Assembly: GCA_034439735.1 (NCBI GenBank)
Contig: JAWXAX010000156.1
Coordinates: 1-33,838, forward strand
Direction of reading: 5' to 3'
Origin: Rhodothermales bacterium
Lineage (GTDB): Bacteria; Bacteroidota; Rhodothermia; Rhodothermales; JAHQVL01
DNA length: 33,838 nt
Shown piece by piece: positions 21,521 to 33,838 of the stretch. The stretch's first letter is position 1, and each line of letters opens with the position of its first letter. The notes under the pieces are model-generated. The model was not told the origin of the DNA. It saw only the letters and a list, made by a program, of their open reading frames with translations, and did not search any database. A program made the position numbers and the translations under genes.

Positions 21521-23257
21521 ATGACCACGGCCAACGTATTTCCCGATACGGCTTTGCTGCTGTCTCATCAGGGGCTCGACACCCTCGACTGGGAACAGTT
21601 GTATGGCGTCGATCGGGTGACGATACTCGTGGCGCCTGTGGTGTTACGTGAGCTGAGCCGGCTAAAAAACCAGGCCGGCCGCCCGCCTCAGGCCGAACGC
21701 GCCGTCGCCTGTTTCGATCAGGTCGTCCGCTTACTCCGCCTGGAAACGCACGCGGCCGATCCGGTCGTCTTCAAGACCGTGCAGGATCCCTCGATCGATT
21801 TCGAAGCCGAGCGACTCGATCCATCCAATCCGAGGGATCAGCTGGTTGCGACTATTATCGATTTCCAGCAGACGCACGCCCTCGAATATGTTGTCCTGTT
21901 GACGGACGATCCGGAGACAGTATTGAAGGCCGAGCGTGCCGGGATCGACGTAGAGCGGCTCTCGACCGCCATGGACCTGCCGGCTCACGAGCCGGCTTCC
22001 GTTTCGTCTGCCTCCGCACCAACTGGAGGGGATGGCATGGCGCCCCGGCAAAGCACCGACGGTCACGAGGCGTCGGCGCCTGACCGAATCGTCCCGCTGG
22101 ATGGGCTCATGGAGCGGAGTCCGCTCTATAAAAAGCTGCCCGAACCTAAATTACCCAGCCTCCCTCCGATTCCAGTGGCACGGCGCCCGTCGCCCACGCT
22201 TAGCGTGGCGACGACGACGCTGCCCGAGGCGTTCGTCCATCTGCCGTCCAATTCCGAACCTGTCCGGCGGGCGGCGCCTCCTGCGCCACCTCCTGCGCCA
22301 CCTGTCGATCCTGAGTCGGTTTGGGAAGCGCCCTCGCGGCCTGGCTACGTCGAGATGTACAGTGCCGACTCGGCCGAAACGGTCCAGGGCGCTACAAACG
22401 AATCCGCGCTTCACGCCCAGGCCGACACTGCCGCCGGCGAGTCGTTCACGGCGACACCCCCACATGGGCCCACGCTGACGCGCACCGTGCCTGAATTGCG
22501 CCTGGCCTACAACGACGGCGCCTACCGGTCAACCGCGCTCATTCGATCGCCCATTTTCCCATCGATCGACGAACTGACACAGGAGCTGACGCGTATCCGG
22601 CGGGACCATCCAAAACTGGCTTATCTCAAACCCGCCCCCGGCGAGGAAACCGTGGATCCGCGTCGTCTGCCCATCTATGAGCGCAAGAATCAGCGCATCA
22701 AGCGGTACAACGCGGCGCTGGACGCGTATTACGCGGCCACCGAAAAGTACCTGCACGACGTCTCGGAATTCGCCAACATGAACCGCCGGCGCACGGTACT
22801 CGCACTGAGCCTGATCAACGACGCACCGGTCGTGCTCAAGAGTCTGTATATCACGGTCCGATTCGCCAGCAACGTCCGCATCTTCTCGGACGATCATCTG
22901 CCGGATCAACCCATCCCGCCCGAACCGCCCGCGCGCCCGAACCTGGATGCGTTGTTCGATGCGATTCGTTTGCCGATCGTCCCCGTGCCGTCCGAACTCC
23001 GCCAGCCCTCCAACCTTCTCCTGCGTAGCCGTAGCCTGTCGCCCCTCGAAATCCGCTGGAACAAAGGGTGGGACGTGATCTACTCGATCCGCGAGCTCGA
23101 GCGGAGCCATGCGGTATCCTTCAATCCGCTGTATCTGGTCTTCAATTCGTTCGATAAAGCCACGTCGATCCGCATCCCCTATCGCATTACGGTAGCCAGC
23201 AGCACCCAGGAAGAACGCGGTCAGCTCGAATTACTCGTTCGCAAGGTCATCCAATAA
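21521..23257 (+). CDS. PIN domain protein fused to an unrecognised C-terminal beta-rich domain
   Basis: 578 residues in three parts. Residues ~5-150 look like a PIN ribonuclease domain of the PhoH-N type: VFPDTALLL (Asp9), APVVLRELSRLK (Glu44), RDQLVATIID (Asp106) and VVLLTDD (Asp129), giving the full acidic quartet. Residues ~150-320 are a low-complexity Pro/Ala/Ser linker. Residues ~325-578 are a folded-looking domain: LRLAYNDG, a helical RRLPIYERKNQRIKRYNAAL stretch, then LSLINDAPVVLKSLYITVRF followed by a proline-rich loop (DQPIPPEPPARPN) and beta strands to the end. The phrase resembles adhesin/Ig-like effector-associated domains that speak of a gap-tolerant ND-AP-V-LK-VRF pattern, but I cannot name a family. 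Monocistronic; no antitoxin is adjacent. Confidence 0.7.
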   Translation: MTTANVFPDTALLLSHQGLDTLDWEQLYGVDRVTILVAPVVLRELSRLKNQAGRPPQAERAVACFDQVVRLLRLETHAADPVVFKTVQDPSIDFEAERLDPSNPRDQLVATIIDFQQTHALEYVVLLTDDPETVLKAERAGIDVERLSTAMDLPAHEPASVSSASAPTGGDGMAPRQSTDGHEASAPDRIVPLDGLMERSPLYKKLPEPKLPSLPPIPVARRPSPTLSVATTTLPEAFVHLPSNSEPVRRAAPPAPPPAPPVDPESVWEAPSRPGYVEMYSADSAETVQGATNESALHAQADTAAGESFTATPPHGPTLTRTVPELRLAYNDGAYRSTALIRSPIFPSIDELTQELTRIRRDHPKLAYLKPAPGEETVDPRRLPIYERKNQRIKRYNAALDAYYAATEKYLHDVSEFANMNRRRTVLALSLINDAPVVLKSLYITVRFASNVRIFSDDHLPDQPIPPEPPARPNLDALFDAIRLPIVPVPSELRQPSNLLLRSRSLSPLEIRWNKGWDVIYSIRELERSHAVSFNPLYLVFNSFDKATSIRIPYRITVASSTQEERGQLELLVRKVIQ

Positions 23258-23377: not shown

Positions 23378-26062
23378 TTATTTCTTCGAGACCGAGCAAT
23401 TCGATTCGGCCGGGAAGCAGGAAAGCAGGCCCGTTACATACTGTAGGACGAGCGATGCATCGTACGCCGTAACACTCGCATCACCCGAGGCATCCGCCGC
23501 CGTAAGCCCCACGCCGCTCAAGGTACTGATCGACGCTACGTGCTGGAGAATCAGCGCGGCGTCGAGGGCCGAGATCGAACCGTCCCCGGTTGCGTCTCCC
23601 TTCGAATAGGCGACCGTGGCGTCGTCGTCCGCAATCGTCAACGTGATCTTGTTCGCCACGGCATCGACCTCGTACCCCGAGCCGGCGCCCAACGTCAGGA
23701 TGGCCGTCTCTCCGCCCTCGTTCGTGGCATCATCGATCGGGTCGATCGTCAACGAGATCTGCGATACGCCGCTCTCGAGGATGACGGGCGTGGCGATGAC
23801 TTTGTAGTCGGTGCCATGAATGGCAGTCCCGGTAATCGTGAGGGTAATGGCCAGTCGGCTAGCGAGGTCGCCGGCGCGTTTTACAAACACCTTCGCTTTA
23901 TTGCCCGCACCGCCGGGTTCGCGGGCGGTCGGATTATTGGCGTCGAGGGTGAGCGAGATCATCGGCGTGCCCTGGTGGTCGTCGTCAGGATCATATTCGT
24001 AGAGCGAATCCCAATCCCCGAGTGGCCAGGCGTCCTTTCCCCATTGGGCGAGCGAGTCGATGAGAGAAGGAGCAACGCCCATATCATACATAAAGGGCAC
24101 GATTCGGTAGAAGTTGTCGGCGTAGTTGAACCGATCCTTCATCATGCTGCCGTTGCCGTTCCACCCTTCGGGCTTATAATTCGCTGGCTCGAGTTGGTCG
24201 TTGTCTTCTCCCCGTCCCCAGGCGCTGAGCGGGAACTCGAGGTTCTTGACGGTAAACGAACGCAGCAGTTTTTCGGATACCTGGCGTAGTTCTTCGGTAG
24301 TGAAGGTGCTCCAGGCCGTATTCACCCCCATCTCTGCCGCCAACCCATCGACAAACCAGTAGGGATGTACGTGGCGCATGTACCACCCCTGACCGCCGAT
24401 GCCGTCCTCGTTGTCGGTCATCTGCAGCATCTTGATGTAGGTGGCGGCCATGCGGGTGCCGGAGGTGAGGCCCGTGTAGTTCGAGAAGTCGCTGATATGC
24501 CCGAACTGGTACTTCCAGTCGACAGGGCTGTGCTCCAGCGGGTCCCGGTTGCCGGCGTTGATAACCATCTGCGCGTGATACCAGATGTGCGAAAAGACCT
24601 TGTCGAGCTTCTCGCTGCCGTAGGTAAACACATTCGGATCCTGCGCTTCGCGGCTGATGTGCGGGGCGACGTTGAAGATGTTGCGGGCTCGGGAGAACCA
24701 GGTATATTTCTCGCCGGCGTCATACATATCCGGCGCCCGGTCCTCCAGGTCGTATTGCTGCATGATCTCCCACACCTTCACGATCTGCCAGAGATGGAGC
24801 GAGAGGTGGGCGCGCACCTGCTTGGTGGCTGTCGCACCCGACGGCCAGGGTTCGTTCCGGCGAAAATCCGATACGGCGTTGTCCCAAGACTCGAAGTAAC
24901 CGATGATCTTCCCACTGGAGATGGCGCTTTCGACACCGCCGGCGAGGGCGTCATCGAGACCGCTTTCGTATTCCTGCGAAGCTTCGCTCGAGGTGAAGGT
25001 GCTCCAGTGGTCCTTCGGGTGGACGATCGGGAGCCAGCGGTTCCAGTCGGGCATCTGGATCGAAAGGGGAATCTCGCGCAGATTCAGTGTGGTTTTTGAC
25101 GAGGTCCGCGCGTTGGTGATGCCATCGGGAAAGAGGTAGGGAATGGCGTCGCGTTCATCATCGAGTACCCACTCCAGCCCGGCGCCGGCGGCCCACTGGG
25201 TAACCGGCTTGTTATCGGTGCCGGGGCCTGGTTGATACGGCGGGTTCCAGGGACGGCCGTGGGCCGGATACGGGAGCGACCGGATCCAGCTTGCGATTTG
25301 CTCGCCCTGCTTCTTGGTCAGGCCGTGGTGTTCCGCGCGGACAACGATCGACTTATTCGAGTAGTTAAAATACTTGAGGTCCCGCCCATCCGCCGCATGG
25401 CAGTCTGCGCACCGCGCCTTGATCGAACCGGTTAGAGGCTCGACGAGCGCCGCGTTCTTCCAGAGATCGGCGCCGGCGGCCAGGTCGGCGGCACTGGTGA
25501 GAATAGGCGCCCACTTCGAAGGATCGTCTTCCAAGAAGTCGACGGCGGACAACACCTCGGCGCCGCTACTGCGCAGCAAGTTGAATTTCAGCACCCGCCA
25601 GCCGGACGAGACGCCATCGGTGCCGTTGAAGCGAAACTGGATGGTGTTGGTGCCCGCTTTAACCAGGCCTGAGGCCAGCGAAATGGAGAACCGGATGGTG
25701 CTGTAGGCGCCGCCGATACCGTCGAGTGTCGCTTCGGGTTCGGCCATGGTTACGTTGCTGTCGCGGAGATCGAGCCAGGCGGCGTCATTGACCTTGACGC
25801 TGCCTTTGTTGTCGTAAGAGAGGTTATGTGCCTGGATCCAGAGGCGGTTGATGCTGGAGGCGTCGTTGACGGTTACGGTGACGGTTTCGATGTGGCCGGC
25901 GGCGCCATGCACTTCGATCGGCAGCGTAACCGGAGCAATAAGGGTTTGAACGACAGGGCTACTCTGGGCACGGCTGTCTAACGTAGCCAGTGCAAGGAGC
26001 ATGAAAAGACCGAGTCGAGCGAGGGCAATTGGAGTTACGAAAGAGAGGCCGTAGGTATGCAT
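23378..26062 (-). CDS. Secreted c-type haem protein with Calx-beta and dockerin modules
   Basis: 894 residues. Signal peptide ~1-32 (LARLGLFMLLALATLDSRAQ). A beta-sandwich-like region (~38-165) is followed by a haem c site CADCH (Cys218, Cys221, His222) within a short cytochrome-like segment (~170-260). The large middle part (~265-700) is unassigned, helical, Trp/Tyr/His-rich. A Calx-beta domain (~708-815) precedes two dockerin-type EF-hand repeats (GDATGDGSISALDAALILQH, ADASGDASVTAYDASLVLQY), and the tail LLSCFPAESNC ends the protein. Dockerins bind Ca and usually cohesins; no cohesin is in the window. Redox activity on a polymer or alcohol is a guess. It follows the DUF5060 gene by 41 bases, so they likely form an operon. 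Confidence 0.8.
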   Translation of the reverse strand: MHTYGLSFVTPIALARLGLFMLLALATLDSRAQSSPVVQTLIAPVTLPIEVHGAAGHIETVTVTVNDASSINRLWIQAHNLSYDNKGSVKVNDAAWLDLRDSNVTMAEPEATLDGIGGAYSTIRFSISLASGLVKAGTNTIQFRFNGTDGVSSGWRVLKFNLLRSSGAEVLSAVDFLEDDPSKWAPILTSAADLAAGADLWKNAALVEPLTGSIKARCADCHAADGRDLKYFNYSNKSIVVRAEHHGLTKKQGEQIASWIRSLPYPAHGRPWNPPYQPGPGTDNKPVTQWAAGAGLEWVLDDERDAIPYLFPDGITNARTSSKTTLNLREIPLSIQMPDWNRWLPIVHPKDHWSTFTSSEASQEYESGLDDALAGGVESAISSGKIIGYFESWDNAVSDFRRNEPWPSGATATKQVRAHLSLHLWQIVKVWEIMQQYDLEDRAPDMYDAGEKYTWFSRARNIFNVAPHISREAQDPNVFTYGSEKLDKVFSHIWYHAQMVINAGNRDPLEHSPVDWKYQFGHISDFSNYTGLTSGTRMAATYIKMLQMTDNEDGIGGQGWYMRHVHPYWFVDGLAAEMGVNTAWSTFTTEELRQVSEKLLRSFTVKNLEFPLSAWGRGEDNDQLEPANYKPEGWNGNGSMMKDRFNYADNFYRIVPFMYDMGVAPSLIDSLAQWGKDAWPLGDWDSLYEYDPDDDHQGTPMISLTLDANNPTAREPGGAGNKAKVFVKRAGDLASRLAITLTITGTAIHGTDYKVIATPVILESGVSQISLTIDPIDDATNEGGETAILTLGAGSGYEVDAVANKITLTIADDDATVAYSKGDATGDGSISALDAALILQHVASISTLSGVGLTAADASGDASVTAYDASLVLQYVTGLLSCFPAESNCSVSKK

Positions 26063-26103
26063 CGGTTATCTCAAGTGGGACAATCGAGGGGGCTTCGATC
26101 GGC

Positions 26104-28485
26104 TTAATTGCCTGTAGGTGATATACAGGGAGCATCGGCGGGAAAACAGGAGAGGATACCCACCAGATACTGTAAAATGAGGGAGGCGTCAAAGGCGCTG
26201 ATTTCACCATTGCCGGAGACGTCTCCGGCGATGAACGCCGCGCCGGCCAGAGCGATCGAACCGGCTGCGTGCTGTAAAATCATCGAGGCGTCGAGAGCAG
26301 AAACCGCGCCATTTTGTGACGGATCGCCGAGTAATGTGGGGGGCCCATCATCATTATCGAACAGAAGGATCGTCGCGGCGCCCTCTCCGAGTGCTATCGA
26401 ATGGTTAGGAGACACCGAAAGAGTGAGCACAATCGTTTCGGTGGGCTCGACCACCGAGTCGTCGATGACCTGGATATCGACCTTTTTCGAGGCCTTGCCG
26501 GCTTCGATGACGATGGTCGCCGGCAGCGGCTCGTAATCGACGCCCAGAGACGCCGTACCTGAAAGCGTATACAACAGGGTCAGTGGCGAGCTCAGATCGC
26601 CCGTTCGATCGAAGGAAAAGCGCCCGACAAGCGCATTCCCCCCCGGTTCGTGGGCCTCGCCGTCGACCACGCCGACCGAAACGACCGGCGTCTGCCCCAC
26701 CCCGCCGCCGGCCGAGGCCACCAGCGCCACCCAGTCCAGGGTAGAGGGCGACGGGGGTGCGCCCAGGGACAAGGTAGCGCCGCCGGTCACCTGTGCGGTC
26801 GACCCGGAAACGAGCGGTCCACCCGTCCGCGGGTTGTACCAGGAGACGTTGAACGTCCCTGTGGCGCCGGCCAGGTTGAGCGTGGTCGTTCCACCCGAAG
26901 GCAGATAGATGGCGTAAACGTGCCCACCAAGCGCAAAAACGTAATCATCAGCGGCCGGGGTCAGGGTGTTCGCGGCCTCCATGTCTTCGAAGGGGAGGTG
27001 GGTATCGAAGAAAGCCCGAGCGTATCCCATCTGTTCGAGGAGGATGTCGTACGAGCGCCAGTCTTCAAGGGACAGGTCATCCGTAGTGAACCACTCGAGT
27101 CCGGCGCCGCCGCCCATCAACATCCCCCAGAGTCCCCCTTTGCGCAGTTCGTCCGCGCGGGTGTTGCCGGCGTTGGGAGACTGCTCATCGCCATAGACGG
27201 CCCAGGGCCGGCCGGCAACCCGGCTCCGCTCGCGGTAATACTGGGCCAGTTCGTTGTAGTCCAGGTGGCCGGCCTGGAGCGAGGTCGCCTCGAAACTCGG
27301 AAGGCCGAGCATGGCGTCGTAAAAGGTGAAGGACTTGCTGTCGGACGTGTGTACGGTGATCGGGTGGTCGTAGGGATCAACCGCTCGGATGTAGTCCGCA
27401 AAGGCGATCTTCTGGTTATCGCCATTGGTGTTCTCTTCGCCGATATTCCACTGGACGGCCAGATGGTGGCCAAAGCGCGCGACGAGTTCGCGGTAGTAGA
27501 GCTTGCGGATGTCGTTGAGATTGTTGTTGTCCTGCCCGATGGGGCCGAGCGCCTTGGCATTTTCGCGCTCGGTGAGGACTACATGGAGCTGGAGTCCTTC
27601 TGCATCCATGTGGGCAAAGACCTTTTCCCACTGATCGAGCTTGCTGACGTCGAACCGCTCTCGTTCGGTGTGGGACGTCCAGGGCCACACGTCACAGCCA
27701 TCGCCCGAATCCAGATTATAGGTTAAAAGGTAAAGGTTGTTTGCCCCCACACTACTCAGATAGTTGATCCCGCCAATCAAGCCTTTGCCCTTGGATCCTT
27801 TCCAGAACGGGTCGCCGGTCTTCCAATCGGAGACATGCGGCGTGAAGGCGTGAAGTGAGTTGTCGATCCCTTCGCCGGCGCAATCGGTGTCGTAGGTGCC
27901 GTCGAAATCGGCGTAGGCGAGCAGGTTCTCCGGGGTATTGGGGGATACCTTGATGAAGTATTCGCCCGAGCCGGCGAATCGGAAATAGTGCTCGCCCACG
28001 TAACGCAGCATCCCTTTGCGGCGAAAATCCGTGTCGGGCTTGTCCGTCCCCCCGATGGTAAAGGCGCCGCTTGCGCCGTTAAAGGAGGTGGCTGCGCCGG
28101 CGCCTGTCGCGAGATCCACCGACACATAAGCGCCTGTCCGAAACGATGCGGTGTAGATCCATGCGCCTTCGTGGTCTGGCGTGAAGTGCACACGCCATTG
28201 ATTCCCACTCGTTGCACTGGTTTCGCCGGCGTTGCCATCACCCGCATAAAACCCGGGGACCGAATAGGTTACACCCGTCGCCGTATGGGTGAAGGTGACC
28301 TGGAGGCGGTAGTCCGTAAAGGGGTTGATCGCGGCCGTTTCACTCGTCTGCGGCCCGCTAAACGAAACCGTGACCCGGTGCCAGATGCGCAGCTCGCCGG
28401 ATACGACGTTCGCACGCAGCGGCAGTGCCCAGGCGACGGCCAGCACAGCGAGGAGACCACTTCTAAAACACAGATGACAGAACAC
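26104..28485 (-). CDS. Secreted DUF5060 glycosidase-like protein with Calx-beta and dockerin
   Basis: 793 residues, GTG start. Signal peptide ~1-25 (LLAVLAVAWALPLRA). DUF5060 domain (~27-125: typical WHRVTVSFSGP, then FTPDHEGAWIYTASF). A TIM-barrel-like glycosidase region (~150-470) has KVSPNTPENLLAY, LTYNLDSGDGCDVWPWT and QWNIGEENTN, where Glu350/Glu351 sit at the expected acid/base place. A small beta domain (~480-575, YAIYLPSGGTTTLNL, WYNPRTGGPL) is like the putative collagen-binding domain that follows such catalytic parts. Then Calx-beta (~590-700), dockerin repeats (~712-775) and the tail ILSCFPADAPC, matching its downstream neighbour. Polysaccharide degradation is likely; the substrate is not known. 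Confidence 0.85.
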   Translation of the reverse strand: MFCHLCFRSGLLAVLAVAWALPLRANVVSGELRIWHRVTVSFSGPQTSETAAINPFTDYRLQVTFTHTATGVTYSVPGFYAGDGNAGETSATSGNQWRVHFTPDHEGAWIYTASFRTGAYVSVDLATGAGAATSFNGASGAFTIGGTDKPDTDFRRKGMLRYVGEHYFRFAGSGEYFIKVSPNTPENLLAYADFDGTYDTDCAGEGIDNSLHAFTPHVSDWKTGDPFWKGSKGKGLIGGINYLSSVGANNLYLLTYNLDSGDGCDVWPWTSHTERERFDVSKLDQWEKVFAHMDAEGLQLHVVLTERENAKALGPIGQDNNNLNDIRKLYYRELVARFGHHLAVQWNIGEENTNGDNQKIAFADYIRAVDPYDHPITVHTSDSKSFTFYDAMLGLPSFEATSLQAGHLDYNELAQYYRERSRVAGRPWAVYGDEQSPNAGNTRADELRKGGLWGMLMGGGAGLEWFTTDDLSLEDWRSYDILLEQMGYARAFFDTHLPFEDMEAANTLTPAADDYVFALGGHVYAIYLPSGGTTTLNLAGATGTFNVSWYNPRTGGPLVSGSTAQVTGGATLSLGAPPSPSTLDWVALVASAGGGVGQTPVVSVGVVDGEAHEPGGNALVGRFSFDRTGDLSSPLTLLYTLSGTASLGVDYEPLPATIVIEAGKASKKVDIQVIDDSVVEPTETIVLTLSVSPNHSIALGEGAATILLFDNDDGPPTLLGDPSQNGAVSALDASMILQHAAGSIALAGAAFIAGDVSGNGEISAFDASLILQYLVGILSCFPADAPCISPTGN

Positions 28486-28751: not shown

Positions 28752-31700
28752 TTATTTCAGCAGTATCATCTTGCCCGTATCACTCACCGTCTGCGCGGGC
28801 ATGACGGCTTCGACGCGGTAGAGGTAGACGCCGGAGGCAAGGCCGCGGCCATCCATCTCGATCTGCCGGCTCTGGCCGGCGGCCAGCTTGATCGCGTTGA
28901 TCTGGCGGACGCGCCGGCCGAGGAGGTCGAACACCTCAATGCTCACATCGGCGGCTTCCGGCAGGTCGAATACGATCTGCGTGACCGGGTTAAACGGATT
29001 CGGATAGTTTCCTTTAAGGCCAAAGGCTTCCGGCAGTTCGGACTGCCACTCGCTGAGGCTCTGGATCATCAGGGCGTCGGTTTCGGCATCTTCGATAGCC
29101 AGCGTGCCGCCCGTACGGACCCGGAAGGTCTCGACCTCGGCGCCGTTGCGCATCCGGCTGACCACGTACTCATTGTCGTTTCCACCTTCGGGCAGGGCCT
29201 CCATCCGCAGGGTGAGCGGGAAAGCCACGTGCTTGAGCTGGACGACGTTGGCAGTAGTTTTCGAGAGCCTCGACTGGTCGGCGTACCGGATATCGAACGC
29301 AACGTCTGGGGCCAGAGGCGGCATACTGTACTGTGTCAGCAGGGCGTCCTCGATCTCGCCACCGAAGTGGAGCGTTTGGAGCCGGCCCTCGTCATCGCTT
29401 ATCGCCACACGGCCGAAGCTTCCGAGGTCGGTCGGGTCGTTGGGGAGGCGGAAGGAGGACGTATTGCTGCAGTCGAAGCGCAACGCGCCGGCTTCTTTCG
29501 CCCGCACCCAGTACCCGCGTCCCTGCTGCAAGCGATCGGCCGGCTGGTAGCCGGAATCGGTGTCGTAGCGGTAGAGCGAGTTCGGAACGATGTGCTCGGC
29601 GCCGGCCATGAGGTTCAGGTCGAGGTCACACGAGGCGCCGGCGATCATATTCCAGCCGGCCTTGAGAGCCACTGTCATCGTATCGAGGCGTTCGCCCTGG
29701 AGCGTCGTCAGCTGTTCTTCCTCGGCGCGGGCCCAGTATCCGCGGCCGCCGATCATGGCGGTCGTGGGGGCATACTTGCCATCGGCATACTGGAGCAGCT
29801 CATCGGTGGCGAACGTCTGACCGGCGTTGGCTTCCGAAACGAGCGGCAGGCCGACGAGCGACCACGATCCGTCGAGCACTTGCTGGTAGCGGCGGACGAT
29901 GAACGTGTTGTCGACGCCGTTGTAGCGGGCATTAAGCGGCACCGTGGCCGGCGTCGGGACGATTTCGATCCCGCTGACGAACGGATTGTCGACGACGCGG
30001 AAGAAGTTGATGTCGATGTTGCCATCGGACACCGTCACGATGAAGCTCTTCTTCACCGCCGTCTGGTAGCCGGCGTCCGCGACGACGTCGTAGTCGTTGA
30101 GTACGAGGTTGTTTTCGATGACCACATCGAATAGCCGCTCGCCGATGTCGTTCGTGGCTGTTCCGGTTTCGGCGAAGTAGAGGTTGACCTCATAGTCGCC
30201 GGCCAGACCGACCGGAAAGTTCCACTCCATGAGCGTCCCGCCAACGGGATCCCATCGGTTGCTGCTGAAGATTTCGGACGGAGCGTCTGTGGTGTTGGAG
30301 CCAACGAAGGCGGCTTTGGAGATCGAGTTATCGCCCCCGGTGGCCGCGTTGCTGAACGGCGCCGGCTTGTTCTTCGTATCCCGCTCCCACACGATCGGCG
30401 TGTCGCTGATGCTGCCGTTGCCGGCGTTGACGCGGAACAGCGGATCGATTGTCGTGGCGGATTCGATAAACGTGGCGGTGATCGAGGCGTCCGTAAAAAC
30501 AGAGTAGTTGAACGGGTTGTCCGGGCTGACGATGTCACCCGACCAGGCGCTGAACTGCCAGCCTGGATCGGGGATGGCCGTGAGCGTAACCACCTCGCCG
30601 TCCGAGTACAGCGGCTTATCTGGCGTCTTCGTGACGGTACCGCTGCCAACGATGGTGACCTCGACAAACGAGAGGTGGACATTGGTCCCGTCGCCGGTGA
30701 GCGTGACGACCGCCGGCGAGCCGGCGCCGGTGTGCGCGATTTCGAGCGAGGCCGTTCGAACACCCTCCGTCGTTGGCGTGAGGACGACCTCGAGCGAATC
30801 CATGGCGCCGGAGGCCAGGTTGACCGAGCCCACGAAGTCGTGGCTGAACTCGGCGGCGTTAGCGCCCGTAATCGAGACGCCCGTCACCGTGCGGGCACCT
30901 GTCGACGTATTTGAGTAGTACACCTGCTTCGGGGCCGAGGCCACATCGACGGGCACGGAGAAGAAGTCGACGGTCGCCGGCGAGGCGAACAGGTCGGCGC
31001 CGAGGACGGGCCGGATCTCGAGAGCGTGGACAATCGGGTTGTCGATCACGTGCGCCAACTCGATGGTGACCGATCCGTCGGCCACGTTCACCACGGCCGA
31101 CTTCTTGATCGTCGTGTTCGCGCCGGCTTCGGCGAAGATGTCGAAGTCTTCGAACACCATCGCATTTTCCATTTTGATATCGAACACGCGACCCCCCACG
31201 GTATGGTTGCTCGCGTCCGATTCAAGGAAGTACAGATTGACCTGGTAGAGGCCTACCTGGGGCGCGGCGAAATTCCAGATCATCTCGACGCCGCCCGTCG
31301 GATCCCACCGGTTGGTGAGGAAAACATCGTTCGGGGCATCCGTGCCGTTGACGCCGGTGAAGGTCGTGATCTTACCCGTCCTATTGTCGTTACCGCTGGC
31401 GTTCACGTGGGGGGACGGGATATTCTTCGTATCGCGGTCCCAATCCTTGAGCGCATCGACGAGGTTGCCGCCGCCGGCATTCACGCGGAAGATCGGATCG
31501 CCCGTGACGACCCCGCCACCGCCATTGACGCCTTCGCCGCTCACGGGGATAGCGATCGAGCCGTTCGAGCCGTTGTGGTTTACAGTCAGCGTGGCGTTGA
31601 CCGCGCCGAGGGTGGTCGGTGCGAAGGTGACATCGGCGTACAGCGTGTCTCCAGGAGGGATGACCGCCGGCAGGCTGAAGGCATAGCTCAGGCTGAAGGC

Positions 31701-33838
31701 CGGGCTACCGGTGAGACTGAGGCTCGAAATCGAGATGTCCTGGTTGCCGCCAGTGTTATACAGGGCGATCATCTCGGCATCATCCAATCCCGTCTGGACC
31801 AGCCCGAAGGCCAGCGTCGTCGGGTCGGCCGCGAGCGTGCTCGGGACGACGGAACCGGGATCGGAAAGCGCCGTGCGGTCGAACACCTCCATGGTGCTCA
31901 TTTCGGGTCCGCCACCCGTTTCGCCCGAGCCGGCCGCGATATAGACGCGCGTGCCATCCACCACGGCCGCGGTGCCGTGGCGTCCGGTGTTCAGGGCGTC
32001 GAGCGTCCGCCAGCTATTGGTGCTGGTATCCAGGACTTCAACCTCGTTGTGCGCCAGCTGCTGGAGGCCGCTTTCGCCGCCGAGGATGAAGAGGTCGTTG
32101 CCGACGACCGCCGCGGCGGTGCCGCCGCGCGGGGTCGGGATGTTGCCGGTGAGGACCGGTAGCGTGGACCAGGAGCCGGCGTTAAAGTCGTATACATCCA
32201 CTTCGGGGATCGTGCTGCCGACGCTGCCGGCGCGACCGCCGGCGACGTAGAGCTTGTCGCCGATGATGGCCGCGTTGAAGTGGTCGCGTCCGCGGGGCAT
32301 GTTCGGCATGATCGTCCAGGCGCCCGTCGCGGGATCGTACTGGTCGAACATGGGCAGGTACACGGCCGAGCCGGCATGTCCGCCGAGGCTGCCGCTCACC
32401 AGGTAGAGCTTCCCGTTGTAGGCCACCGCTCCGGCGCTACCGCGGAGGCGGGCGGCGGGGATGGTCGCTCCGACGGTCCAGGTGTCTGTATTCGGGGCGT
32501 AGGTGTAGATGTTCGGCACGGGCGTTTCGCTCGGGAAATCACCCACATAAGCGCCAGCAACGTACACGACATTGCCCAGAGAGACCGCCTGGAAGTGGTG
32601 CATCTGGATCGGAGGCAGCGAGAGCTGCGTCCAGGCGCCAGTGGCCGGGACGAACCGATCCGTTCTGCGGCTGCCTCGACCGCCGATCAGGTAGAAATTG
32701 TTATCGTGCTTTACGAACGTATTCTCATGGCGCTGGCGCGGATCGGTCGGGGCCTGGTAGGTGTGCCAGAGGTCGGCGATCGGGTTGGGGTCCTGCGCGA
32801 CATCGATGGCATCCCAGGTGGCGGCGAAGACCGGGCCGGCGCCGGCCGAGGTCGAGATGATACCCACGGCGAGGCCCGAGGGCACGCCTGGAGCGACCTG
32901 GTACGTGCCCTGGATAGCCTGCAAGAGGCTGCCAGACACCTGGAGGGGGAGACCGAGGTAGACGGCTGGCTGGTTATCCTGGATGTACTTCGGTTGGATG
33001 GTGCCCGCGACCGGATTGACCGTGAGCAGGAGGTCGATGTTGATAGCATCGGCCGCGGTCGCGGCGATATAGTTGGTGACGGTGGCCACCCCGCCGGCTT
33101 CGTGGATCACCTGGAGCCCGCCGGCGCCCGCCTGGGCGTTGAGGGCCACCTTGACATAGTTATCCATGTTACCCGGCCCGATGTACATACCCAGCGCCTG
33201 ATTGTCCTGCGGCGTGACGCCGTCGAAGAACGGCCCGGTAATGCGCACCTTGACCGTGTAAGGCCCGGAGACGCCGGCCACGTTCACGCCAAACTGGAAG
33301 CCGTTCTCCTGCGTGTTAGTAGCACCCGTGGCATCTCCTTCGGAGACGGCGGAGACCGTGAAGAGGCCGGCCGTTCCGCCGGGCACGAGGTTATTCTCCT
33401 CGTACTGATCCAGATAATTCGTGACCCCGTTGGTCATGAGGCCCGTGAAGCCTACGCCGTAGAAGCCGGTGCCCGGGTCTTCGTTGAGGAGCGGGTAATT
33501 TACAGGCAGGGTGAGACCCGTGCCGTTCGTGGCATCGGTGGCGAAGGAGTCGTTGAGGTCGTTGACGCCGTCGTTGTCGTCATCCGCATCCAGGAGGTTG
33601 GACGTGAGGTCGCCGTCGTTATCCGCCGGCTTGCTGGCGGCCGAACACGGGTTGGACGCATTCAGCGTCTCGTCTTCGTTATCGAAGCCGTCGCCGTCCT
33701 CATCGAGGAGCGGGTCGGACACGCCGGTGCAGACGCCGCCGGCGGCGCCGCCGTAATCGCCCGGCTCAAACACCCAGATGTCGTAGCTGGCGAAGTCGGC
33801 CGCCCAGATGGTGCCGGGGAACGGATCGGTGTCGCCCT
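28752..33838 (-). CDS. Giant secreted protein with kelch, HYDIN-like, malectin and T9SS domains (5' partial)
   Basis: The frame is open to the right edge (21 more residues before the GTG at 33773, including PGTIWAADFASYDIWVFEPG), so the gene is cut. Numbering from 33773: thrombospondin type 3-like Ca repeats (~20-75, DEDGDGFDN, DADDDNDGVND); a lectin-like beta region (~100-325); about six kelch repeats (~335-630, VYVAGAY, LYLVSGSLGG, LYVAGGRAG, LFILGGESG); an ASH/HYDIN-type domain (~645-748); malectin-like domain 1 (~757-920, FRVNAGGG); a second ASH domain (~925-1030); an InlB-B-like repeat (~1035-1105, WSGDIVSPDNPF); malectin-like domain 2 (~1110-1273, FRVNAGNG); an unassigned part; and a T9SS domain (~1585-1673, YPNPFNP to YLYRVEA). 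It is likely a surface carbohydrate-binding or adhesion protein. Confidence 0.9.
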   Translation of the reverse strand, partial: GDTDPFPGTIWAADFASYDIWVFEPGDYGGAAGGVCTGVSDPLLDEDGDGFDNEDETLNASNPCSAASKPADNDGDLTSNLLDADDDNDGVNDLNDSFATDATNGTGLTLPVNYPLLNEDPGTGFYGVGFTGLMTNGVTNYLDQYEENNLVPGGTAGLFTVSAVSEGDATGATNTQENGFQFGVNVAGVSGPYTVKVRITGPFFDGVTPQDNQALGMYIGPGNMDNYVKVALNAQAGAGGLQVIHEAGGVATVTNYIAATAADAINIDLLLTVNPVAGTIQPKYIQDNQPAVYLGLPLQVSGSLLQAIQGTYQVAPGVPSGLAVGIISTSAGAGPVFAATWDAIDVAQDPNPIADLWHTYQAPTDPRQRHENTFVKHDNNFYLIGGRGSRRTDRFVPATGAWTQLSLPPIQMHHFQAVSLGNVVYVAGAYVGDFPSETPVPNIYTYAPNTDTWTVGATIPAARLRGSAGAVAYNGKLYLVSGSLGGHAGSAVYLPMFDQYDPATGAWTIMPNMPRGRDHFNAAIIGDKLYVAGGRAGSVGSTIPEVDVYDFNAGSWSTLPVLTGNIPTPRGGTAAAVVGNDLFILGGESGLQQLAHNEVEVLDTSTNSWRTLDALNTGRHGTAAVVDGTRVYIAAGSGETGGGPEMSTMEVFDRTALSDPGSVVPSTLAADPTTLAFGLVQTGLDDAEMIALYNTGGNQDISISSLSLTGSPAFSLSYAFSLPAVIPPGDTLYADVTFAPTTLGAVNATLTVNHNGSNGSIAIPVSGEGVNGGGGVVTGDPIFRVNAGGGNLVDALKDWDRDTKNIPSPHVNASGNDNRTGKITTFTGVNGTDAPNDVFLTNRWDPTGGVEMIWNFAAPQVGLYQVNLYFLESDASNHTVGGRVFDIKMENAMVFEDFDIFAEAGANTTIKKSAVVNVADGSVTIELAHVIDNPIVHALEIRPVLGADLFASPATVDFFSVPVDVASAPKQVYYSNTSTGARTVTGVSITGANAAEFSHDFVGSVNLASGAMDSLEVVLTPTTEGVRTASLEIAHTGAGSPAVVTLTGDGTNVHLSFVEVTIVGSGTVTKTPDKPLYSDGEVVTLTAIPDPGWQFSAWSGDIVSPDNPFNYSVFTDASITATFIESATTIDPLFRVNAGNGSISDTPIVWERDTKNKPAPFSNAATGGDNSISKAAFVGSNTTDAPSEIFSSNRWDPVGGTLMEWNFPVGLAGDYEVNLYFAETGTATNDIGERLFDVVIENNLVLNDYDVVADAGYQTAVKKSFIVTVSDGNIDINFFRVVDNPFVSGIEIVPTPATVPLNARYNGVDNTFIVRRYQQVLDGSWSLVGLPLVSEANAGQTFATDELLQYADGKYAPTTAMIGGRGYWARAEEEQLTTLQGERLDTMTVALKAGWNMIAGASCDLDLNLMAGAEHIVPNSLYRYDTDSGYQPADRLQQGRGYWVRAKEAGALRFDCSNTSSFRLPNDPTDLGSFGRVAISDDEGRLQTLHFGGEIEDALLTQYSMPPLAPDVAFDIRYADQSRLSKTTANVVQLKHVAFPLTLRMEALPEGGNDNEYVVSRMRNGAEVETFRVRTGGTLAIEDAETDALMIQSLSEWQSELPEAFGLKGNYPNPFNPVTQIVFDLPEAADVSIEVFDLLGRRVRQINAIKLAAGQSRQIEMDGRGLASGVYLYRVEAVMPAQTVSDTGKMILLK

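Follow-up and report, generated by a model that had tools for sequence, protein, structure and literature searches.

Domain organization and relatives of a Rhodothermales PIN-domain protein suggest a modular, probably defense-derived protein

Several described PIN-domain proteins offer points of comparison for the gene reported here. PhoH2 consists of a PIN domain plus a P-loop RNA helicase, and VapC of the VapBC systems is a short PIN protein with an adjoining antitoxin; VapC is not known to carry a C-terminal domain of 250 residues. SMG6 (EST1A) and Nmd4 are eukaryotic RNA-surveillance proteins that share the PIN fold. The SMG6 D1353A mutant is reported to be catalytically inactive, and the adjacent acids D474 and D475 of PRORP1 are both listed as catalytic (PMC12923823). 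DS-3 is a single-protein PIN defense system that has no antitoxin and is proposed to be auto-inhibited (PMC13092281).

The window is a 33,838-nucleotide stretch of DNA from a Rhodothermales bacterium (assembly GCA_034439735.1, contig JAWXAX010000156.1), and its gene at 21521..23257 (+ strand) codes for a 578-aa protein with a PIN domain, a disordered linker, and a C-terminal helix and Ig-like domain. The gene is real, with GC of 0.67/0.47/0.73 by codon position in the ORF and a homologue in the same bacterial family in which both ends are conserved. The PIN_4 domain occupies residues 1-155 (21521..21985, +) and is followed by a linker of 168 residues (156-323; 21986..22489, +) composed of 18% proline, 14% alanine, and 11% serine, with a pLDDT below 50 over most of its length. 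The C-terminal domain spans residues 324-578 (22490..23254, +) and is separate from near residue 324, so that the ∼170-residue Pro/Ala/Ser linker and distinct ∼250-residue C-terminal domain of the preliminary description both hold. The long Pro-rich linker is absent from the five homologues found beyond the bacterial family, where a short segment, probably a coiled coil, stands in its place.

The upstream neighbor is a divergently transcribed MOSC protein gene, the downstream gene is convergent, and no small partner ORF adjoining the gene was found in the ORF list, in agreement with the earlier statement that no antitoxin gene is present. A search for sigma-70 promoter-like sites upstream found none, a result that carries little weight in this phylum. 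The protein has no match in profile searches of NCBIfam, PADLOC, and PHROGs and only a weak match to the sequences of solved structures (E 0.062). The absence of a PhoH-type ATPase was also correctly anticipated, as there is no match to any PhoH or P-loop family and the C-terminal part is modeled as a beta-sandwich; unlike PhoH2, the protein has no helicase domain and carries the Ig-like module in its place. By description it resembles DS-3 in being a one-gene PIN nuclease without an antitoxin, but in DS-3 separate N- and C-terminal parts make up the PIN domain (PMC13092281). A VapC-like toxin with an overlooked or unlinked antitoxin would account for the PIN domain and for the toxin-antitoxin genes near a plasmid-borne homologue, but it is highly improbable for a 578-aa protein with no small adjoining partner ORF, no common neighbor among seven loci, and a C-terminal domain of 250 residues not known from VapC.

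Assignment of the N-terminal part as a PIN domain is upheld by sequence for the window protein and by predicted structure for a relative. Residues 9-146 match Pfam PIN_4 (PF13638) with an E value of 3e-7 and 31.2 bits, above the curated cut-off of 21.9 bits. AlphaFold2 models were built from two rows, the window protein and a Rhodohalobacter homologue, and the PIN region of the window protein itself is modeled with low confidence. In structure comparison, the PIN region of the Rhodohalobacter model groups with the PIN structures of Nmd4 (Z 15.2) and SMG6 (Z 13.4) and also matches those of Rrp44/Dis3, with an overall range of Z 10-15. A profile of the seven family PIN regions matches SMG6 (PDB 2hww) with an E value of 2.4e-5, and residue equivalences were counted along this profile alignment. 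Asp9 (21545..21547, +), Glu44 (21650..21652, +), and Asp130 (21908..21910, +) align with SMG6 D1251, E1282, and D1392, respectively, and are kept in all seven rows of the family alignment. The canonical third acid is kept in five of the seven members and is absent from the window protein and its nearest relative (G001), which have Arg105 and Ala, respectively, at the position of SMG6 D1353; an Asp follows directly in both copies (Arg105-Asp106 in the window; 21833..21838, +), and the DTN motif reads DTA/DTT in the two copies. The complete acidic quartet proposed earlier (Asp9, Glu44, Asp106, and Asp129) is thus retained for its first two members, but the fourth acid is Asp130 rather than Asp129 and Asp106 lies one residue late; because Arg105 occupies the canonical third-acid position, a complete quartet is unestablished. 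The protein also departs from SMG6 in its C-terminal domain and in being bacterial.

These residues are compatible with full, reduced, or no activity of the PIN domain in the window copy. One alternative is that it is catalytically impaired in this lineage and that the protein has been domesticated as a regulator that binds RNA or serves as a scaffold, like SMG5 with its inactive PIN domain. The Arg or Ala at the D1353 position, the DTA/DTT motif, and the inactivation of SMG6 by D1353A (PMC12923823) all point this way, as does the occurrence of the window and G001 genes in the same msrP-HNH neighborhood, outside recognized defense islands; impairment is nonetheless rather unlikely, with D9, E44, and D130 retained and an Asp directly after the lost position in both copies, reminiscent of the adjacent catalytic acids of PRORP1. 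With its displaced residue, the protein is a natural case for testing how many of the quartet acids a PIN domain requires.

The C-terminal domain is modeled in both proteins as strands, a helix, a long helix, and a beta-sandwich. The long helix (residues 383-423; 22667..22789, +) carries the conserved signature YNxxLxxYYxxxxxYL, and the Ig-like sandwich (residues 424-576; 22790..23248, +) includes a PxPP loop (P467, P469, and P470). Local confidence in this part of the window model is mostly moderate to good, unlike in the PIN part, and the Rhodohalobacter model has a mean pLDDT of 65.9. The closest structures, at Z about 10-11, are integrin alpha-chain domains with an Ig-like fold, and AP2 mu2, the alpha-2-macroglobulin receptor-binding domain, and other beta-sandwich domains rank just below them; the Ig-like beta-sandwich predicted here is a common fold and indicates no function. 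The preliminary description had singled out a phrase (residues 429-448) as recalling domains attached to varied effectors, and it is present but corresponds merely to two neighboring strands of the predicted sandwich.

That the C-terminal domain belongs to no recognized family, as first proposed, is borne out by profile searches with the window protein, in which no family in Pfam, NCBIfam, PHROGs, or PADLOC scores above its cut-off. The domain thus appears to be undescribed, as judged by sequence against these libraries and the open-licence papers searched. DUF11/CARDB-like Ig repeats have no match in the window protein in Pfam and NCBIfam-type profile searches. Weak matches of the C-terminal profile to large proteins fall on DUF11/CARDB-like repeats in those read and were taken to reflect a shared Ig-like fold or chance, and a match at locus L041 appears to be a chance one that falls on a helix.

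The same C-terminal domain is present in one protein with a different N-terminal enzyme. This protein (L025:632-2482, genome G626) has an N-terminal PRTase-CE domain (PF24390, E 4.6e-31; PADLOC PRTase_III-A, E 3.7e-23) and is thereby related to the PRTase-CE/retron type III-A PRTase effectors, followed by a C-terminal part that matches with an E value of 2.3e-8 using a profile built without it and 1.6e-8 using the seven-row model. The hhalign probability is 94% over the helix, the first strands, and the PxPP loop; DUF11 and the related TIGR01451 match this fusion only, both below cut-off. Whereas the window gene stands alone, the fusion is the product of an apparent operon (L025:632-5189) that also codes for a reverse transcriptase (RT_UG21, E 1e-112) and a trypsin-like protease. 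The three genes lie on one strand in the order reverse transcriptase, protease, fusion, separated by 48 and 10 bases, and the gene after the fusion gene resembles a type I restriction specificity subunit.

None of the other PRTase-CE loci fetched has the C-terminal domain, and the fusion therefore rests on one case; PRTase-CE was not found by name in the open-licence literature searched. The earlier suggestion of one C-terminal domain on varied effectors thus gains a single independent example, the N-terminal partner otherwise being PIN. Because it is also joined to PRTase-CE in a defense reverse-transcriptase operon, the module behaves like an exchangeable control module. A tentative and more specific possibility is that these proteins form a single-gene RNA-targeting defense family in which an Ig-like sensor, common with the PRTase effectors of UG21 systems and unrecognized across unrelated systems, switches on a PIN RNase. 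If the module were a shared sensor of the trigger, PIN RNases would be linked with defense reverse-transcriptase/PRTase systems, and profile searches with the shared domain could be used to identify further members.

Six homologues were found, all with the PIN region at the N terminus (an alignment of seven rows with the window protein), and PIN_4 scores above cut-off in five of them, the plasmid copy being unmatched. The nearest relative (G001, locus L008) is from another genus of the same family and is 44% identical to the window protein in the PIN part and 53% identical in the C-terminal part. Others are in a member of the same order (G047, L009), in Rhodohalobacter halophilus (G272), in another family of the phylum (G499 and G496; L018 and L019), and on the conjugative plasmid Lpl of the alphaproteobacterial Novosphingobium sp. 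PP1Y. The C-terminal domain is present in only 4 of 245 genomes of the class and in 6 of 395 drawn from the phylum. No relative was found in the genome contigs searched with the window protein, and a further scan of genome contigs returned only the Rhodohalobacter genome already known. Protein-based searches of viral contigs found no relative, a DNA-pattern search of them gave four loci with none matching the domain model, and phage records have no match to the protein. In the tree, the same-order copy does not group with the window protein, with weak support. Both the patchy spread and the presence of a copy on a plasmid are consistent with horizontal transfer. The last part of the plasmid homologue (L007:11117-11272) has matches at many unannotated sites on plasmids, as though the end of an insertion element lay within the gene.

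This distribution bears on the alternative that the protein is a housekeeping RNA-decay or quality-control nuclease of the SMG6/PhoH2 type and not a conflict effector. The closest solved PIN structures are those of eukaryotic RNA-surveillance proteins, and in two homologues the PIN region is matched by PhoH2-like profiles (PHROGs, E 1.1e-15; NCBIfam, E 6.1e-6, far under the full-length cut-off of that profile). A housekeeping role is nevertheless unlikely for a gene this rare and patchy within its class, with copies on a plasmid, beside an integrase, and in a defense island.

The defense island is that of Rhodohalobacter, in which the homologue adjoins a NACHT/nSTAND gene matching PDC-S60 (E 2.5e-23) in a cluster that also holds a Schlafen-type helicase and an HNH restriction-type nuclease. 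A nearby 428-aa protein (L014:10986-12272) has no Pfam match and only a marginal PADLOC match. The same-order homologue adjoins an integrase, with a DruE-like gene about 5 kb away, and the plasmid homologue lies beside HipA genes and an integrase. Two chromosomal homologues (L023 and L024) have ordinary neighbors, one of them UvrB-like by sequence reading. Location of the homologues in defense islands is thus seen for one, with another beside an integrase, but not for the window gene or the L023 and L024 copies. No PADLOC-DB 2.0.0 family of known anti-phage systems matches the window protein or any of the six homologues. A peptidase-like gene pair common to two loci was not taken as a partner, and all-against-all comparison of the neighbors at seven loci identified no common partner except MsrP and HNH in the nearest relative; the protein therefore seems to function without a partner gene.

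Taken together, the observations agree with an effector that stands alone, has an exchangeable C-terminal control module, and has a history connected with biological conflict. The analysis itself establishes the domain architecture, predicted fold class, homologues, PRTase-CE fusion, and gene neighborhoods. We favor, with moderate confidence, a single-gene PIN RNase effector with a sensing or oligomerizing module that is derived from defense and possibly altered in the window lineage; we infer the RNase activity, the sensing, the trigger, and the defense role. An N-terminal PIN endoribonuclease of the PIN_4/SMG6/PhoH2 kind would be tethered to the C-terminal regulatory module, which would keep the nuclease inactive or align it in a dimer. 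A trigger, such as a phage or stress product, would bind the module and release RNA cleavage, leading to growth arrest.

The window gene itself lies between the MOSC protein gene and the gene of a secreted, dockerin-bearing protein, and no recognized defense genes were found around it in Pfam, PADLOC, and NCBIfam searches; its neighbors are housekeeping or secreted proteins, and a defense context is not evident for this copy. The nearby MsrP gene, small gene, and HNH gene are also kept in G001, so that the gene occupies a common chromosomal position in both genera, and the same trio is present in two more genomes of the order, in which the fetched stretches do not contain the PIN gene. The long flexible linker, the displaced third acid, and this shared position therefore suggest that the activity is perhaps weakened or redirected. 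Further along the window, the stretch at 23378-28485 codes for two proteins of secreted type. Both contain a Calx-beta-like domain and a type I dockerin that scores above cut-off. A 1,673-aa protein at 28752-33773 has kelch, malectin, and Por secretion-tail domains.
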